This document shows positions 4,153-61,141 of a stretch of 64,000 bases of DNA, one piece after another; the first letter of the stretch is position 1; every line of letters starts with the position of its first letter. A program made the position numbers and the translations under genes. Below the pieces are notes generated by a model that saw only the letters and a program-made list of their open reading frames with translations, ran no database searches and was not told where the DNA came from. The DNA comes from Flavobacteriales bacterium (GTDB lineage Bacteria; Bacteroidota; Bacteroidia; Flavobacteriales; UBA7430), in NCBI GenBank assembly GCA_022425195.1, contig JAKMFX010000040.1, positions 62,001-126,000 of the forward strand. The letters are read 5' to 3'.

Positions 4153-4644
4153 ATGAAAAAGCTTTTAATCCTTTCAATAATGTTATTTACTGATGTCTGT
4201 TGTGTATCTCAAAATTCGACAATTCTACTTCCATCGATAAACATCAAATCTCTGGAAGGAAAAACATTGAATACCAAAGAATTTGATAACAAGGGCAAGC
4301 CTATGGTCATTGCATTTTGGGCAACATGGTGCAAACCCTGTACCAAAGAGTTAAATGCAATCTCTGATGTTTATGAACAGTGGCAAAAAGAAACAAAAGT
4401 AAAAGTGATTGCAATTTCTATTGATGATGCCAGAAATTCAAGCAAAGTGGCGCCTTATGCAAATGGGAAAGATTGGCCCTTTGAAATTTACCTAGACGAT
4501 AACAGCGATCTAAAAAGAGCGTTAAATGTCAATTCCATTCCACACACTTTCCTCTTAAATGCAAAAAAAGAAATCGTTTGGCAACACGCTTCTTATTTAG
4601 ATGGAGATGAAGAAGAACTCTATGAAGAGATCATAAAACTATAG
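4153..4644 (+). CDS. TlpA-like periplasmic thioredoxin
   Basis: A 163-residue protein with an N-terminal signal sequence (about residues 1-20) and a thioredoxin fold. The redox motif is WATWCKPC (Cys-Lys-Pro-Cys, about residues 56-63), and a cis-Pro follows in IPHTFLL. TlpA/ResA proteins reduce or isomerise disulfides in exported proteins. It is the first gene of a run of five plus-strand genes with 11, 3, -4 and -4 base spacings, ending with ubiX. Its likely clients are cysteine-containing envelope proteins such as the Omp28-like lipoprotein encoded two genes downstream, which is an inference from context. Confidence 0.88.
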   Translation: MKKLLILSIMLFTDVCCVSQNSTILLPSINIKSLEGKTLNTKEFDNKGKPMVIAFWATWCKPCTKELNAISDVYEQWQKETKVKVIAISIDDARNSSKVAPYANGKDWPFEIYLDDNSDLKRALNVNSIPHTFLLNAKKEIVWQHASYLDGDEEELYEEIIKL

Positions 4645-28836: not shown

Positions 28837-30108
28837 ATGAATCTGGTAGAAAAAGATCAAAAATACATTTGGCACCCCTTCACACAAATGAAGACGTCTG
28901 GACCAGCACTCCCCATAGTCAAAGGAGAAGGTACGTTACTCACCGATGAATCAGGCAAAAGCTACATCGATGCCATCTCTTCTTGGTGGGTAAATCTTCA
29001 CGGCCACAGCCATCCCTACATTGCCCAAAAAGTATTTGAGCAAATGCAAAAACTAGAACACGTTGTTTTTGCTGGATTCACCCATCAACCCGCTGTTGAT
29101 TTATGTGAGAAGCTTTCAAGACATCTACCGGACAACCAAGCCAAATTTTTCTTTTCAGGTGATGGTTCTTCTGCGGTAGAAATCGCACTAAAGATGAGCG
29201 TCCAATACTGGAAGAATAAAGGCGAAAATAAAACTCGATTTGTGGCTCTAGAAGGTGCTTATCACGGAGAAACCTTCGGTGCCATGTCTGCAGGTGCCAG
29301 AAGCATTTTCTCTGCTCACTTTTCAGACATGCTTTTTGAAAGTACGCACATCCCCTTTCCAAAAGAGGAACAGGCAGCCATTCAAAGTCTGAAAACTGAA
29401 ATCGCTAAAGGTGATGTAGCCGCTTTCATATTTGAACCACTCGTTCAGGGGGCTGCAGGAATGAGAATGTACGATGCAAGTACCTTAAACAAACTCATAC
29501 AGATTTGTAAAAAAGCGGGAGTGCTATGTATCGCCGATGAAGTAATGACAGGATTTGGTAGAACAGGAACCACTTTTGCCGTTAATCAAATTGAAGCAAA
29601 ACCCGATTTCATATGCATGTCTAAAGGCCTTTCCGGAGGAACCTTACCCCTTTCTTTGACCAGTTGCACACAAGACATCTACGAAGCCTTCTTGGGAGAT
29701 GACATTCACAAAGCCTTTTTACACGGCCATTCATTCACAGGAAACCCAATAGGATGCACAGCGGCTCTAGCAAGCCTGGAGTTACTTGAGAAAAAAGAAT
29801 GTCGTGAAGCCATTGAAAAAATTACGGAAAATCACAAAGCATTTACAGAACAGCTTGGTGCACTAAAAGTCATCGAAGAAATACGCCAAACGGGCACCAT
29901 TCTGGCCATAGAATTGAAAAGTGATCGCTCGGGTTATGCGAGTAAAATTCGCCAAAAATTATATGACGATTTTCTAAAACGGGGTGTATTGCTGAGGCCT
30001 CTGGGCAACGTCATTTATATTTTACCTCCCTATTGCATTCAAGAAAAGGAACTAAAGAAAGTTTACGAAGTCATCCAAGAAAAACTGATCGAATTGTCTC
30101 AAAATTAA
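28837..30108 (+). CDS. bioA: Adenosylmethionine-8-amino-7-oxononanoate aminotransferase
   Basis: A 423-residue class III aminotransferase. The opening IWHPFTQMKT is characteristic of BioA, SSWWVNLHGHSHPYI follows, the cofactor Asp lies in CIADEVMTGFGRTG, and the PLP lysine is in CMSKGLSGG. It transfers an amino group from S-adenosylmethionine to the bioF product. It ends 5 bases before the convergent secreted-protein gene with no hairpin between them, so transcripts probably overlap at their 3' ends. The product supports biotin-dependent enzymes such as the partner of the carboxylase at 34093. Confidence 0.95.
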   Translation: MNLVEKDQKYIWHPFTQMKTSGPALPIVKGEGTLLTDESGKSYIDAISSWWVNLHGHSHPYIAQKVFEQMQKLEHVVFAGFTHQPAVDLCEKLSRHLPDNQAKFFFSGDGSSAVEIALKMSVQYWKNKGENKTRFVALEGAYHGETFGAMSAGARSIFSAHFSDMLFESTHIPFPKEEQAAIQSLKTEIAKGDVAAFIFEPLVQGAAGMRMYDASTLNKLIQICKKAGVLCIADEVMTGFGRTGTTFAVNQIEAKPDFICMSKGLSGGTLPLSLTSCTQDIYEAFLGDDIHKAFLHGHSFTGNPIGCTAALASLELLEKKECREAIEKITENHKAFTEQLGALKVIEEIRQTGTILAIELKSDRSGYASKIRQKLYDDFLKRGVLLRPLGNVIYILPPYCIQEKELKKVYEVIQEKLIELSQN

Positions 30109-55045: not shown

Positions 55046-55317
55046 AAATAAAAGTATTAAGTAAGGAGTAAATAGAGATAATAATGTGAGTGATTTAATA
55101 GGCCTGCCTATCGGGAATAAAGGCTCAAAGAAGTCAATAGGACCATCGAATAATCGAGTTTAATGACAAGTATGGAGGGCTGATTTGGGTCCGTCACATA
55201 CCTCATATTTATTTTTTGCATAAGTGTCATAGTAACACAATAATTTTATATCTTGGTCCACTGAAAGTGACCACATCAACAATAGTGGTTCATGATTGAG
55301 ATTTTAAACACACACTG
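55046..55317. other. Intergenic region upstream of the pheA leader
   Basis: 272 bases without an ORF I can support. It must hold the promoter of the leader RNA, but the best candidates (TATTTTTTG near 55210, TATCTTGG at 55249-55256) each depart from TAnnTTTG. A weak ACCAC/GTGGT hairpin lies around 55270-55290. No tRNA or other RNA gene is recognisable. Confidence 0.5.
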
Positions 55318-55371
55318 ATGAACAGATTAGAAAATACATTTAACAGCTTTTATTTTATCTACGACAGATAG
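55318..55371 (+). CDS. Leader peptide of the Phe/Tyr operon attenuator
   Basis: A 17-codon ORF encoding MNRLENTFNSFYFIYDR. Three Phe and two Tyr make up five of 17 residues, with four in the FYFIY run (codons 55348-55362). It ends in TAG exactly at the 5' arm of the antiterminator and lies 80 bases before pheA, whose product leads to Phe. The role is to sense charged tRNA-Phe and tRNA-Tyr by ribosome stalling. It is too short for a normal gene and is called on codon content and the RNA structures that follow. Confidence 0.82.
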   Translation: MNRLENTFNSFYFIYDR

Positions 55372-55416
55372 AGGCTTTTAATTGTATTTACTATTTAAAT
55401 AGAACATAGAAGCCTC
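55371..55416 (+). promoter_or_regulatory. Antiterminator hairpin of the pheA attenuator
   Basis: GAGGCTTTTA (55371-55380) pairs with TAGAAGCCTC (55407-55416) through 10 bases including one G-U. The 3' arm shares 55410-55416 with the terminator stem, so only one can form. A ribosome at the leader stop would cover the 5' arm and favour termination. One stalled on the Phe/Tyr run would leave it free. Confidence 0.78.
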
Positions 55417-55437
55417 GATAAAAACGAGGCTTTTTTT
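55410..55437 (+). terminator. Attenuator terminator in front of pheA
   Basis: AAGCCTCG (55410-55417) pairs with CGAGGCTT (55425-55432), loop ATAAAAA, followed by T up to 55437. It ends 14 bases before the pheA ATG and has no complete gene before it, so it acts on the leader transcript. Confidence 0.88.
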
Positions 55438-55451
55438 AGTTTATAGAGCGA

Positions 55452-56270
55452 ATGAAAGTAGCTATTCAAGGAGTTAAAGGATCATTTCACCACATCGTGG
55501 CTGAGCAATATTTTGGAAAAAATATTGACTTAGTAGAATGTTTGTTGTTCAGTGAAATGCCTGATAAGCTGATTGACAATAAGGCAGATGTACTCATTAT
55601 GGCTATTGAAAACTCCATTGCTGGGGCTATCTTACCAAATTACGCACTCATTGATGAATACCAACTGAATATTTGTGGAGAACACTACCTCCCTATTCAC
55701 CACAACTTAATGGGGATCAAAGGGCAGTCCATAGAAGACATAAAAGAAGTATACTCACACCCGATGGCCTTACTTCAATGTCGTAAGTTCTTTAAAAAAC
55801 ACCCGCACATTAAATTGATTGAAGACAAAGATACTGCGGAGGTTGCCAAAAGAATTGAGGAGGGGAATCTCATGGGCGTTGGTGCCATTGCAAGTAATTT
55901 AGCCGCTGAAACGTATCATTTGGAAATTTTAGCTTCAGAGATTCAAACCATTAATGAGAACGCTACACGTTTTTTCATCCTAAACAATTCAAATCCAGAC
56001 AAAAGCATTGTCGCTAACAAAGCTTCTATTAAATTTGTGGCGAATAATGATGCAGGAAGTTTAGCTGAGGTATTGAGCATCATGGCGAATCAGGGTTTAA
56101 ATTTGACAAAGATTCAATCCATGCCGATTATAGATACACCATGGAAATACGCATTTTTTGTAGATTTTATTTTTAATGACTACTCCCTATATTCGTCAGC
56201 TATGGAGGAAATAAAGGACAAAGTAGTTACACTAAAAATATTAGGTGAATACTCCAAAAGTAAACGATAA
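55452..56270 (+). CDS. pheA: Prephenate dehydratase
   Basis: A 272-residue stand-alone enzyme. The catalytic domain (about 1-180) has IQGVKGSFHHIVAEQYFG at the start and NATRFFIL (the Thr-Arg-Phe active-site motif). A C-terminal ACT domain (about 190-272; NDAGSLAEVLSIMANQG and NLTKIQSMPI) is the Phe-binding regulatory part. It turns prephenate into phenylpyruvate. It is the first structural gene of the operon and is controlled both by Phe feedback (ACT domain, from family knowledge) and, by inference, by the leader attenuator. Its stop overlaps the next ATG as TAATG. Confidence 0.94.
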   Translation: MKVAIQGVKGSFHHIVAEQYFGKNIDLVECLLFSEMPDKLIDNKADVLIMAIENSIAGAILPNYALIDEYQLNICGEHYLPIHHNLMGIKGQSIEDIKEVYSHPMALLQCRKFFKKHPHIKLIEDKDTAEVAKRIEEGNLMGVGAIASNLAAETYHLEILASEIQTINENATRFFILNNSNPDKSIVANKASIKFVANNDAGSLAEVLSIMANQGLNLTKIQSMPIIDTPWKYAFFVDFIFNDYSLYSSAMEEIKDKVVTLKILGEYSKSKR

Positions 56271-57427
56271 TGATTAAAAAAGCGGAAAGATTACAGTCTG
56301 TTACAGAATACTATTTCTCCAAGAAATTAAGAGAAGTAGCGAAGCTGCGTGCAGAAGGTAAATCCATCATCAACATGGCTATTGGTAATCCTGACTTACC
56401 GCCTCCAACAAAAGTTTTGGAAGCGATAGACAGTGCCATGAAACAGGATGGAGCTCATCAATATCAAAGCTATCAGGGGCTCCCTGAACTCAGACAGGCA
56501 ATGTCCGGTTTTTACAAAACACATTATCGGGTTTCCCTCGATCCGAATGGAGAAATATTACCACTCATGGGATCCAAGGAAGGGATCATGCATATCTCAA
56601 TGGCTTACCTGAACAAAGGAGATGGAGTTCTACTCCCAAATCCGGGATATCCTACTTATGCCTCGGTAAGTAATTTAATGCAAGCCGACCTTATTCATTA
56701 TGATTTAGATGCTTCAAACAATTGGCAACCTGACTATGAGGCGCTTGAAAGGAAAGATTTAAGTCATGTAAAAATCATGTGGTTGAATTACCCTCACATG
56801 CCGACGGGGACCTCAGCCACAAAAAAAGACTTAGAAAAAGCCATCGCATTTGCCAAAAAACATGATCTATTGATCGTTAATGACAACCCATACAGCTTCA
56901 TCCTTAATGATGAGCCACAAAGTATTTTAGCTGTTGAAGGAGCTAGAGAAGTCGCCATAGAGCTAAACTCTTTAAGTAAAACCTTCAACATGGCTGGATG
57001 GCGCGTGGGAATGGTTGTTGGAAATGCGGACATCATCAAAACCATTCTTCAGGTAAAAAGCAATATGGATTCAGGAATGTTTTTGGGCATTCAAAAAGGA
57101 GCAATTGCAGCTCTTAACAGCCCACAAAGCTGGTTTGATGAACTCAATGCCATCTACGTGAAAAGAAGAGAAATTGTTTGGCAGATATTTGATGCCCTGA
57201 ACTGCTCCTACGAAAAAGAAAATGCCGGGATGTTTGTATGGGCAAAACTACCTGAAGGGCATGAGTCTATGCAGTTTATCGATCAGCTGCTGAATGAAAA
57301 AGAGGTATTCATTACTCCGGGAACTATTTTCGGGAGTCAGGGTGAGGGTTATATAAGGGCCTCCCTTTGTATTTCTGAAAAACTATTAGAAGAAGTATTA
57401 AATCGCTTATCAACCGAAAAAAAATAA
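56270..57427 (+). CDS. Class I/II aminotransferase, probably aromatic
   Basis: A 385-residue PLP-dependent fold type I enzyme. The PLP lysine is in NSLSKTFNMAGWRVG, with NYPHMPTGTSA and NDNPYSFI upstream and a C-terminal GEGYIRASLC carrying the substrate-binding Arg. By family it could be an aspartate, LL-diaminopimelate or aromatic aminotransferase. The position between pheA and tyrA points to the last step from phenylpyruvate and 4-hydroxyphenylpyruvate to Phe and Tyr. One-base overlaps with both neighbours (TAATG) show tight coupling. Confidence 0.88.
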   Translation: MIKKAERLQSVTEYYFSKKLREVAKLRAEGKSIINMAIGNPDLPPPTKVLEAIDSAMKQDGAHQYQSYQGLPELRQAMSGFYKTHYRVSLDPNGEILPLMGSKEGIMHISMAYLNKGDGVLLPNPGYPTYASVSNLMQADLIHYDLDASNNWQPDYEALERKDLSHVKIMWLNYPHMPTGTSATKKDLEKAIAFAKKHDLLIVNDNPYSFILNDEPQSILAVEGAREVAIELNSLSKTFNMAGWRVGMVVGNADIIKTILQVKSNMDSGMFLGIQKGAIAALNSPQSWFDELNAIYVKRREIVWQIFDALNCSYEKENAGMFVWAKLPEGHESMQFIDQLLNEKEVFITPGTIFGSQGEGYIRASLCISEKLLEEVLNRLSTEKK

Positions 57428-58290
57428 TGATGGAAAAATTAGCGGTCATCGGTTTGGGTTTGATAGGAGGTTCAATGGCTTTGGATTTAAAAAAGCGACG
57501 GAATTATGAGGTGCTGGGCATAGACAAAAACCCTAATCACATCAAAAAGGCACTAGAGCTCGGAATCATAGATAGAGAGACCGACTTTTCTGAATTGGCT
57601 GATGTTTCTGTTGTCATTGTTGCCGTTCCTGTCAACAAGATTGCCGAAGTCAGTACTAAGGTGCTAGATGCCATCGGAGATGAAACCCTCGTTTTTGATG
57701 TAGGGTCTGTGAAGAACAACATCTGTGAATTCATCAAATCACATCCCAGACGAAAAAACTTCGTCGCTGCTCATCCGCTAGCGGGAACTGAGTTTTCTGG
57801 GCCTGAAGCTGCGATATCAAACTTATTTGATGAAAAAGTAGCCATCATATGTGAATCTGAAAAAACCCATTGGGAGACTCTAGATATCGCGATCAGCTTA
57901 TTCAAGCAATTGAACATGCGCATAAAAATGATGAACCCGATAGATCATGACCGACATGTGGCCTATGTCTCGCATTTGTCTCACGTGAGCGCATTCATGC
58001 TTGGTAAAACGGTACTGGAAATTGAAAAAAATGAACAAGCCATCTTTGACATGGCGAGTACCGGATTTGCATCGACCGTGCGGTTGGCAAAAAGTTCGGC
58101 AAATACCTGGACACCCATTTTCCTTGAGAACAAAGAAAATATTGTAACCTCTCTTGAAGAATACATTAAAAATTTAGTTGAATTCAAGAAATTTATCGAA
58201 TCTAACGATGACGATATGTTGAACAAAACAATGAACAATACCAATTATATCAAGACCATATTAAATGGGATAAAATCAAACGACAAGTAA
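57427..58290 (+). CDS. tyrA: Prephenate dehydrogenase
   Basis: A 287-residue NAD(P)-dependent enzyme. The Rossmann motif VIGLGLIGGSMALDL is at residues 7-21, VAAHPLAGTEFSGPEAA carries catalytic His residues, and YVSHLSHVSAFMLG follows. It oxidises prephenate to 4-hydroxyphenylpyruvate for Tyr. There is no fused chorismate mutase; that activity is supplied by the next gene. The start ATG overlaps the previous stop by one base. A second codon ATG follows at 57430, so the exact start could be one codon later. Confidence 0.93.
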   Translation: MMEKLAVIGLGLIGGSMALDLKKRRNYEVLGIDKNPNHIKKALELGIIDRETDFSELADVSVVIVAVPVNKIAEVSTKVLDAIGDETLVFDVGSVKNNICEFIKSHPRRKNFVAAHPLAGTEFSGPEAAISNLFDEKVAIICESEKTHWETLDIAISLFKQLNMRIKMMNPIDHDRHVAYVSHLSHVSAFMLGKTVLEIEKNEQAIFDMASTGFASTVRLAKSSANTWTPIFLENKENIVTSLEEYIKNLVEFKKFIESNDDDMLNKTMNNTNYIKTILNGIKSNDK

Positions 58291-58309: not shown

Positions 58310-59386
58310 ATGGAAATAACGAAAAACAACAGAAAATGGCTAGACAGTTTGGGTTTATCACACCCGGTTGTTATTGCAGGCCCTTGTAGTGCTGAATCTG
58401 AGGAGCAAGTTTTGAAGACTGCACATGAATTGAAGAAGACAGACACCAATATTTTTAGAGCAGGTATTTGGAAACCTAGAACACGTCCCGGAGGATTTGA
58501 AGGAGTAGGTGAAAAAGGATTGCCGTGGTTACAAAAAGTCCGTGAAGAAACCGGATTCAAAGTGACTACTGAAGTTGGAAATGCAGATCACGTTGAGAAA
58601 GCGTTGAAGTATGATGTAGATATTTTATGGATTGGAGCCAGAACTACAGTAAATCCTTTTGCGGTTCAAGAAATAGCTGATGCCCTAAAAGGTGTTGACA
58701 AACCCGTATTGGTCAAAAACCCAGTGAACCCTGACTTAGCCCTTTGGCTTGGAGGTGTAGAGCGTATTAAGGCTGCAGGGATTTCTCAATTGGGTGTGAT
58801 TCACAGAGGATTCTCATCATACAAATCTCAAAACTACCGCAACAAACCAAAATGGCAAATTGCGATTGAGTTGAAAAAGGAATTCCCTGATCTTCCGCTC
58901 ATCCTAGATCCTTCTCATATTTGTGGAAGAAGAGATACCATTCTGGATGTAACTCAAACTGCTTTGGACTTAAATTATGATGGTTTCATGATTGAAACCC
59001 ACATAGACCCAGATAATGCTTGGAGTGATGCCAAACAACAAATCACACCAGGAAGGCTAAGTGAAATCACTGAAGAACTTGTGATTCGAAAGGAAAGCAG
59101 TTCAAAAGAAACATTCCAACAAAAATTGGACATCTACAGAAGTGACTTAGACATCCTAGACAACAAGCTGATTGGTTTGTTAAAAAACCGGATGGATATT
59201 TCAGAACTCATTGGAGCTTTAAAACGTGAGGAAAATGTTGCTATCCTTCAAAGTTCTAGATGGGAAGAAATCTTAACTTCTATGGTTGATGAAGCGAATA
59301 AATCAGGTTTAAATAAGGAATTTATTTCTGAAATATTTAAAGCCATTCACGTAGAATCAATCAAAATTCAACACGAAAAGAAATAA
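58310..59386 (+). CDS. Bifunctional DAHP synthase/chorismate mutase
   Basis: A 358-residue fusion. The N-terminal type I-beta DAHP synthase (about 1-260) has VIAGPCSAESEEQV, FRAGIWKPRTRPGGFEG, PVLVKNPVNPD and LILDPSHICGRRD. The C-terminal AroQ chorismate mutase (about 268-358) has FQQKLDIYRSDLDILDNKLI and LLKNRMDISELIGALK. It starts the shikimate pathway and also commits chorismate to Phe/Tyr. The mutase probably also serves as the feedback sensor, as in other AroG-AroQ fusions. It is last in the operon and followed by a strong terminator. Confidence 0.93.
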   Translation: MEITKNNRKWLDSLGLSHPVVIAGPCSAESEEQVLKTAHELKKTDTNIFRAGIWKPRTRPGGFEGVGEKGLPWLQKVREETGFKVTTEVGNADHVEKALKYDVDILWIGARTTVNPFAVQEIADALKGVDKPVLVKNPVNPDLALWLGGVERIKAAGISQLGVIHRGFSSYKSQNYRNKPKWQIAIELKKEFPDLPLILDPSHICGRRDTILDVTQTALDLNYDGFMIETHIDPDNAWSDAKQQITPGRLSEITEELVIRKESSSKETFQQKLDIYRSDLDILDNKLIGLLKNRMDISELIGALKREENVAILQSSRWEEILTSMVDEANKSGLNKEFISEIFKAIHVESIKIQHEKK

Positions 59387-59395
59387 TTCGAAAAG

Positions 59396-59423
59396 AAAAA
59401 GCCACTTGAACAAGTGGCTTTTT
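59396..59423. terminator. Bidirectional terminator, aromatic operon/lysS
   Basis: AAAAAGCCACTTG and CAAGTGGCTTTTT form a 13-bp stem with a 2-base loop and further T. It lies between the convergent ends at 59386 and 59429. Confidence 0.92.
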
Positions 59424-59428
59424 CTTTT

Positions 59429-61141
59429 TTAGTTTTCTATGAGATCGATCACGATCCCTTCTTCAGTTTTCGTTGCTTTGGTAAGCCCTAACTTCCCCAA
59501 GGTCTTTATTCCTTTATCCCATTTCTTATTACTCAACTGAGCCAAATCTTTTAACTCATTCAAATCAATGGATTTTCGCTCACTGACAATGTCATAAATT
59601 ACTTTCTCGTGCTCTTTGAGATCCATGGCAGCTTTCGTGTCAAACTTTTCAGGTCTCATTTGAGGGAAGAATAAAACCTCTTGAATGGAAGATTGGTTTG
59701 TCAATAACATGGTCAAACGATCTATTCCTATTCCCATACCCGAAGTTGGAGGCATTCCATATTCGAGAGCACGGAGGAAATCTTGATCAATAAACATGGC
59801 TTCATCGTCTCCTTTAGCCGATAAGGCCAATTGCTCCTCAAAACGCTCGCGTTGATCGATAGGATCATTAAGCTCCGAATAAGCATTGGCAATTTCCTTA
59901 CCATTGACCATTAGCTCAAAACGCTCTGTTAACTCAGGATTATCTCTATGCACCTTACACAAAGGTGACATCTCTTTTGGGTAATCCGTAATGAATGTGG
60001 GTTGTATATAATGGGGTTCACATTTCTCTCCAAAAATCTCATCAATGAGTTTTCCTTTTCCCATAGATGGGTCGATCTCAATCTCCAGACTTCTACAAGC
60101 CTCTCTTAATTGACTTTCATCCATACCGGAAATATCTACTCCCGTATGCTCTTTAATCGCATCTGTCATCGTTACGCGAGCAAAGGGTGTTTTAAAACTG
60201 ATTTGTTTATCTCCTACAACAATGTCAGTTTCCCCATTTACGTCCATCGCAACACGCTGAATCATTTGTTCGGTAAAATCCATCATCCAGTGGTAGTCTT
60301 TGTAGGCTACATAAATTTCCATAACGGTAAATTCAGGATTGTGCGTCCGATCCATTCCTTCGTTACGAAAATCTTTAGCGAACTCATACACCCCATCAAA
60401 ACCACCAACAATTAATCTTTTTAGGTACAATTCGTTGGCAATTCTTAAATAGAGAGGAATGTCAAGAGCATTGTGATGAGATATAAAAGGACGTGCCGAG
60501 GCGCCCCCAGGAATCGGCTGAAGAATGGGTGTCTCGACCTCCAAATAATCTTTTTCATTAAAGAACGCACGCATGCTATTAATGATCTTTGTTCGCTTGA
60601 TAAAGGTCTCTTTAACACCTTCATTAACGACCAAATCCACATAACGTTGCCGGTATCTGAGTTCTGGATCCGTAAATGCATCATACACCTTACCGTCATC
60701 GTCGGTTTTAACAATAGGCAAAGGTTTTAGAGATTTAGATAACAGAGTGAAGCTCTTAACCAGTAAAGAAATTTCTCCAACCTGTGTTTTAAACAACTCT
60801 CCCTCAACACCGATGAAGTCTCCCATGTCGAGCAGTTTCTTGAAAACTTCATTATAAAGCGTCTTATCTTCACCTGTACAAATTTCATCACGGTTGAAAT
60901 ACAATTGCAAACGGCCCTCAGCGTCTTGCAACTCGGCAAAGGATGCCTTCCCCATGATACGTCTACTCATCAGGCGTCCCGCGACACACACCTTTCTTGC
61001 TTCTGCAAAATTTTCTTTACAATCTTTAGTGTAAGCACTCACGTCAAAGGCGGCTGCAGGGTAAGGCTCGATTCCTAAATCTCTTAGTCTTTTAAGGGAC
61101 TCTCTTCGAACCGACTCCTGTTCTGATAACTGTATACTCAT
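59429..61141 (-). CDS. lysS: Lysyl-tRNA synthetase, class II
   Basis: A 570-residue enzyme. The OB-fold anticodon domain ([20 protein letters not shown]), motif 2 region [20 protein letters not shown] and motif 3 [13 protein letters not shown] are intact. Beyond motif 3 it carries an extra C-terminal part of about 75 residues ending [14 protein letters not shown]. This is missing from the 505-residue E. coli enzyme and frequent in Bacteroidota; it looks like a small winged helix. It charges tRNA-Lys. Promoter element directly upstream; monocistronic. Confidence 0.96.

Follow-up and report, generated by a model that had tools for sequence, protein, structure and literature searches.

The pheA leader of enterobacteria is Phe-specific and controls pheA alone. 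For Bacteroidetes/Chlorobi, some attenuators were reportedly proposed in a 2004 comparative study by Vitreschak et al., and Bacteroid-trp RNA lies before trp genes. The latter is listed as a predicted cis-regulatory RNA of Bacteroidetes (PMC2864571, table 1), and short open reading frames (ORFs) reminiscent of leader peptides have been described in Bacteroides thetaiotaomicron (PMC7366714). In Flavobacterium psychrophilum, passages of the main text of a 2021 transcriptome study report structured 5' elements upstream of pheA and hisG, state that these elements have no Rfam hits and are kept in other Flavobacteriaceae genera, and mention strong hints of leader-peptide attenuation ahead of operons for amino-acid biosynthesis (PMC9723704). 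In other taxa, the uORFC-13-1 motif accompanies Acholeplasma aroF (PMC8632094), and upstream ORFs of shikimate-pathway genes have been noted for their Phe and Tyr codons (PMC6429828).

Here, we describe the leader of a pheA operon found in a window of 64,000 nucleotides (64 kb), the whole stretch of Flavobacteriales DNA that was analyzed. This leader is very probably an attenuator of the trpL/pheL type, in which a ribosome mediates the control of transcription and both Phe and Tyr are sensed. The analysis establishes the parts of the element, their conservation, the coupled changes in their sequences, and a predicted thermodynamic switching between alternative structures.

Organization of the Operon

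The leader precedes four genes on the + strand, which are spaced by one-base overlaps or a 19-base gap and are followed by a terminator:

55452..56270, + strand: pheA, prephenate dehydratase with an ACT domain (Pfam PF00800, E = 1.7e-56; PF01842)
56270..57427, + strand: class I/II aminotransferase, overlapping the end of pheA by one base (Pfam PF00155, E = 2.1e-68)
57427..58290, + strand: tyrA, prephenate dehydrogenase (Pfam PF02153 and PF20463)
58310..59386, + strand: DAHP synthase fused to a type II chorismate mutase, the pathway entry enzyme (Pfam PF00793, E = 2e-42; PF01817)
59390..59429, no strand assigned: strong bidirectional terminator closing the operon (symmetric, 18-bp stem)

The bidirectional terminator separates the DAHP synthase gene from a convergent gene on the - strand, the product of which resembles lysyl-tRNA synthetase. 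Lutibacter oceani carries the same four kinds of genes, in the same order, behind its leader, as judged by likeness of the translations. Because of the gene order, a single leader plausibly controls all four genes, that is, the whole Phe/Tyr branch plus the entry enzyme. The operon makes Phe and Tyr, and the codons of the leader fit this product.

Leader Peptide and Upstream Signals

The following features lie upstream of, or within, the leader ORF:

55249..55256, + strand: candidate -7 promoter element TATCTTGG, with 1 mismatch against the Bacteroidota consensus
55318..55371, + strand: leader peptide ORF of 17 codons, MNRLENTFNSFYFIYDR, with the stop codon TAG (seen in the sequence and kept in relatives)
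55348..55362, + strand: regulatory codons Phe-Tyr-Phe-Ile-Tyr (TTT TAT TTT ATC TAC), read from the sequence

Translation of 55318-55371 gives MNRLENTFNSFYFIYDR followed by a stop, and the Phe-Tyr-Phe-Ile-Tyr run occupies codons 11-15, just as an earlier note on this DNA had claimed; an extra Phe at codon 8 lies outside the run. In two congeners (L002 and L003), the pheA genes of which are 93% and 85% identical, respectively, the leader peptide is identical to that of the window. The -7 consensus of Bacteroidota, as it is given in two papers, is TAnnTTTG (PMC9723704, PMC7366714). The TATATCTTGG of the candidate promoter is kept in both congeners, and no -33 box with suitable spacing was found upstream of the candidate element. 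We therefore regard TATCTTGG only tentatively as a promoter element, from which transcription might start near 55260.

Strands and Alternative Hairpins

Four strands of the leader RNA can be distinguished:

55340..55355, + strand: strand 1, holding codons 8-13 and pairing with the strand 2 region 55366-55381 in a predicted protector hairpin (minimum-energy and centroid fold)
55371..55380, + strand: strand 2, the 5' arm of the antiterminator, GAGGCTTTTA, the first base of which is the last base of the TAG stop at 55369-55371 (pairing, covariation)
55407..55417, + strand: strand 3, the common arm, used by the antiterminator as its 3' arm (55407-55416) and by the terminator as its 5' arm (55408-55417) (pairing, covariation)
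55425..55437, + strand: strand 4, the 3' arm of the intrinsic terminator, CGAGGCTTTT (55425-55434), followed by a T-run to 55437 (fold, covariation)

The antiterminator 2:3 joins 55371-55380 with 55407-55416 through 10 pairs, one of which is G-U. The terminator 3:4 joins 55408-55417 with 55425-55434, and this terminator and its T-run are located directly 5' of pheA, which starts at 55452. Thus, two features expected of an attenuator are present, namely an intrinsic terminator before the first gene and a mutually exclusive antiterminator on its 5' arm. The sequence agrees with the earlier note in that the stop codon overlaps the first base of the 10-bp antiterminator arm at 55371-55380 and in that GAGGCTT occurs twice, at 55371 and 55426. 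The terminator had likewise been placed properly, before pheA, with a T-run and an arm common to the antiterminator, but its stem is 10 bp long, with two outer pairs A-U and G-U, and not 8 bp as had been thought. Furthermore, although both the 2:3 and the 3:4 helices of that anatomy exist, strand 1 and the predicted 1:2 hairpin (55340-55355 with 55366-55381), which is part of the minimum-energy fold, had been overlooked. Since the aromatic codons can pair with 55366-55381, the leader without a ribosome is predicted to fold as 1:2 plus 3:4. The folding energy of the leader corresponds to z = -7.1, and none of 200 shuffles was equally stable.

Proposed Mechanism and Ribosome Geometry

In the mechanism that we propose, a ribosome would translate the 17-codon peptide as RNA polymerase is still transcribing the leader. 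When charged tRNA-Phe and tRNA-Tyr are plentiful, the ribosome would reach the stop at 55369-55371 and cover strand 2 (55371-55380); strands 3 and 4 would then pair, and transcription would end before pheA, at the terminator (55408-55437). When Phe or Tyr is short, the ribosome would stall at codons 11-13, or less effectively at codon 15, which would open 1:2 and free strand 2. The free strand 2 would take strand 3 before strand 4 is made, allowing read-through into the genes for PheA, the aminotransferase, TyrA, and DAHP synthase-chorismate mutase. If there is no translation at all, 1:2 and 3:4 would both form and transcription would stop, a situation known as superattenuation. That the leader responds to the supply of amino acids, and that all four genes are under its control, is inferred.

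Switching was computed by folding the leader with the ribosome footprint removed, taking +10 or +12 as the edge of the footprint. Stalls at Phe11 to Ile14 give helix 2:3 a predicted mean pair probability of 0.99 as long as strand 4 is still missing, and of 0.65-0.89 at equilibrium once it is present. With the ribosome at the stop, the predicted 2:3 probability is 0.00 and that of the terminator is 0.95, and the terminator is also predicted at 0.95 with no ribosome. In this calculation, therefore, a stalled ribosome frees strand 2 and a ribosome at the stop covers it. A stall at Tyr15 yields either 2:3 or the terminator in the predicted fold, depending on whether the edge is at +10 or +12, and Tyr15 is therefore a marginal stall site in this species. 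From the model, most of the signal is expected to come from Phe11, Tyr12, and Phe13, with Tyr15 being borderline.

When the last aromatic codon occupies the A site, the ribosome extends about 12 nt downstream. Across 67 leaders, strand 2 starts a median of 13 nt past the last aromatic codon (interquartile range 11-15, with one outlier at -17); the start of strand 2 therefore coincides with the edge of a stalled ribosome. Measured from the stop codon, by contrast, its position varies between -44 and +8 in the same leaders. The idea that a ribosome at the stop masks strand 2 holds true for the window, but most relatives have their stop inside strand 2 or farther on. In those relatives the ribosome would translate into or through strand 2; the constant feature is how far strand 2 lies from the last aromatic codon.

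Conservation across Bacteroidota

Homologues of pheA were sampled from relatives, from the order, and from the phylum, and a leader was called where a terminator followed an ORF that begins with ATG and has 4 or more aromatic residues within 7 codons. Such a leader and terminator were found upstream of pheA in 67 Bacteroidota loci, including that of the window itself, and the leader was present in 60 of 71 sampled pheA genes of the same type and in 15 of 18 families; because close relatives were favored in the sampling, these counts do not represent frequencies in the phylum. Among more distant pheA genes, none of 27 had a leader. The aromatic upstream ORF, the terminator, and the alternative pairings, for which the earlier note had advised a search in relatives, are kept upstream of pheA in many Bacteroidota families, and the wide extension of the putative pheA attenuator over many families of the phylum is well supported by these comparisons.

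The leader is not found everywhere. One member of the same family (L005) has this type of pheA but no detectable leader. In three loci of one genus (L063, L064, and L065), an open frame extends right up to pheA and there is no leader; one reading is that control was lost or replaced with the change of operon. Five loci from endosymbiont-sized genomes of 0.6 Mb (L017, L018, L020, L079, and L080) have kept this pheA, and both leader and terminator are absent from them. The absences in this genus and in the 0.6-Mb genomes make sense in part.

Four loci from another class of the same phylum (L069, L092, L093, and L094) have this type of pheA, at 44-48% identity, together with a Phe/Tyr leader. Other genomes from the families of three of these loci (f32, f29, and f47) have a distant pheA and no leader. 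In these four cases the leader may have been transferred along with its gene.

Covariation was examined in an alignment of 25 leaders. Strands 2/3/4 change in concert from genus to genus, as in GAGGCT/AGCCTC/GAGGCT, GGGACT/AGTCCC/GGGACT, and AGGATT/AATCCT/AGGATT or GGGATT/AATCCC/GGGATT. Because strand 3 is common to both helices, each change in it must be matched twice. Changes on both sides, of the compensatory kind that had been proposed as a check on the two stems, occur in 7 of 10 pairs of helix 2:3 (slid controls, 1-4) and in 4 of 10 pairs of helix 3:4 (slid controls, 0-1), and the covariation score of helix 2:3 was reached by none of 500 shuffles. The mean score of a leader against its own strand 3 is 19.7, as compared with 12.4 against the strand 3 of unrelated relatives. 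For helix 1:2, 76% of the cells are paired and 7 pairs show changes on both sides, with slid controls reaching up to 9; conservation of this helix is weaker and is only partly supported by covariation. Overall, conservation upstream of pheA and compensatory changes in both stems lend support to the original reading of this leader as an attenuator of the trp/phe type.

One might instead regard the element as a plain intergenic terminator for an upstream transcript, the aromatic ORF having arisen accidentally from U-rich sequence. The A+T content of the region is high, U-rich DNA in one frame yields Phe and Tyr codons, and aromatic short ORFs alone arise by chance about 6 times per shuffled window. 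However, when both strands of the 64 kb window were scanned for the combination of a short ORF that starts with ATG and has 4 or more aromatic residues within 5 codons, a terminator no more than about 110 nt away, and a correctly spaced strand-2 repeat, exactly one match to this full architecture was obtained, the pheA leader, and none was obtained in 100 dinucleotide shuffles of the whole window. A plain terminator needs neither the upstream ORF nor strand 2, yet both are found conserved, and the conservation in 15 families and the coupled changes in three strands also speak against it. In addition, the nearest gene upstream of the leader lies on the opposite strand, and there is therefore no upstream transcript to end here. 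Taken together, these observations make this explanation extremely improbable.

Amino Acids Sensed

In the 67 leaders, Phe accounts for 21.1% of the residues, Tyr for 13.6%, and Trp for 1.6%; because the leaders were selected on aromatic content, the aromatic total, including the 34.7% for Phe plus Tyr, is biased upward, but the mixture of Phe and Tyr was no condition of the selection. Both Phe and Tyr are present in 66 of these 67 leaders. The peptides are otherwise strongly variable, as illustrated by FYFIYDR, FYFYFYFMDKG, NNFYFFFSRS, and YFYYFSKSRG, and only the Phe/Tyr content and the distance to strand 2 are kept.

This variability bears on the possibility that the leader encodes a nascent peptide of the TnaC or ErmCL type that arrests the ribosome, perhaps with free Phe or Tyr as a ligand. 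The peptide is short and its C-terminal part is aromatic, and TnaC demonstrates that a free amino acid can cause arrest. However, a peptide that is free apart from its Phe/Tyr content and its distance to strand 2 points to starvation at the codons rather than to arrest by a particular peptide sequence, and arrest by an abundant amino acid would raise expression in times of plenty, which is the wrong direction for a biosynthetic operon. We consider an arrest peptide very unlikely. For the codon-starvation reading, combined with the mixture of Phe and Tyr, the consequence is that a shortage of either amino acid should relieve termination.

Other Leaders in the Same Genome

Upstream of hisG (at 4629 in G000:C38; L115), there is a His leader, MNLIQTHHHHHTGSQTSQG, which has five His residues and is followed by a terminator of the form AAACCCCGTTTGA-loop-TCAAACGGGGTTTTTT, with a CAAACG repeat near the end of the leader. 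This locus appears to be a second attenuator in the same genome. A Trp leader with two Trp codons, MENKNTNNSWWIRFR, lies on the reverse strand of G000:C47 (L117), where it is followed by a terminator-like hairpin and precedes a gene at 29174-29923, one of two chorismate-binding (trpE-like) genes. This leader may belong to the kind known as Bacteroid-trp. In both cases the codons agree with the pathway. No leaders were seen before the ilvD- and leuA-type genes of the genome, nor in the stretch read for a homoserine-dehydrogenase gene, which fell inside a long fused gene.

Comparison with Known Systems

At gathering score, no Rfam family, including Bacteroid-trp (RF01692) and T-box, matches anywhere in the 64 kb window. 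With the threshold relaxed, all matches stayed below the cut-off, the best being Phe_leader (RF01859), with 26.7 bits and E = 0.015 against a gathering cut-off of 55 bits; Trp_leader (RF00513) scored 20.8 bits against a cut-off of 41 bits.

A structured leader with a terminator before an amino-acid operon would also be compatible with a ligand-binding riboswitch or a T-box that directly recognizes Phe or uncharged tRNA, with the ORF there only incidentally. However, every Rfam model stays below its gathering score in the window, with Phe_leader as the best weak likeness, and beyond the aromatic codons and the three strands that switch the leader alignment shows no conserved core, so that we assign a negligible probability to direct sensing of this kind. 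All three alternatives, the plain terminator, the riboswitch or T-box, and the peptide-specific arrest, were rejected.

Returning to the attenuator, its operation needs a ribosome close behind RNA polymerase, and its wide conservation is thus indirect evidence of transcription-translation coupling in Bacteroidota, at least in leaders. We favor, with moderate confidence, the broader view that an old attenuator, present in much of Bacteroidota and outside Rfam, senses Phe and Tyr jointly and sets the whole branch including the entry enzyme, implying close coupling in a phylum that largely lacks Shine-Dalgarno-led initiation. What had been a passing remark in one transcriptome paper becomes a defined element, with a peptide, codons, three exchanging strands, and a footprint distance that recurs over many families. 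In addition, such leaders offer a readout of the amino acids sensed by uncultured lineages of Bacteroidota.

Among known systems, the enterobacterial pheA leader (Rfam Phe_leader, RF01859) shares with the present one its mechanism, its gene, a Phe-rich peptide, an antiterminator, and a terminator; the differences are that the codons here mix Phe and Tyr and that the operon adds tyrA and DAHP synthase. Bacteroid-trp (RF01692) differs in both its operon and its codons. The uORFC-13-1 motif and the upstream ORFs of shikimate genes likewise stand before shikimate-pathway genes, in other taxa and before other genes, and are likened here by their description (PMC8632094, PMC6429828). The pheA element of F. 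psychrophilum has the same gene and order and a transcribed, structured 5' region; the main text of that study presents neither the leader peptide nor the alternative helices nor the amino acids sensed, and its passage on the element describes no spread past Flavobacteriaceae (PMC9723704). The suggestion that such leaders are little described in this phylum must therefore be qualified, since passages of that study report the pheA element (PMC9723704) and Bacteroid-trp has been listed (PMC2864571). Overall, the mechanism is a known one and its pheA case had already been glimpsed, and what is added here is the mechanism in full together with its spread.
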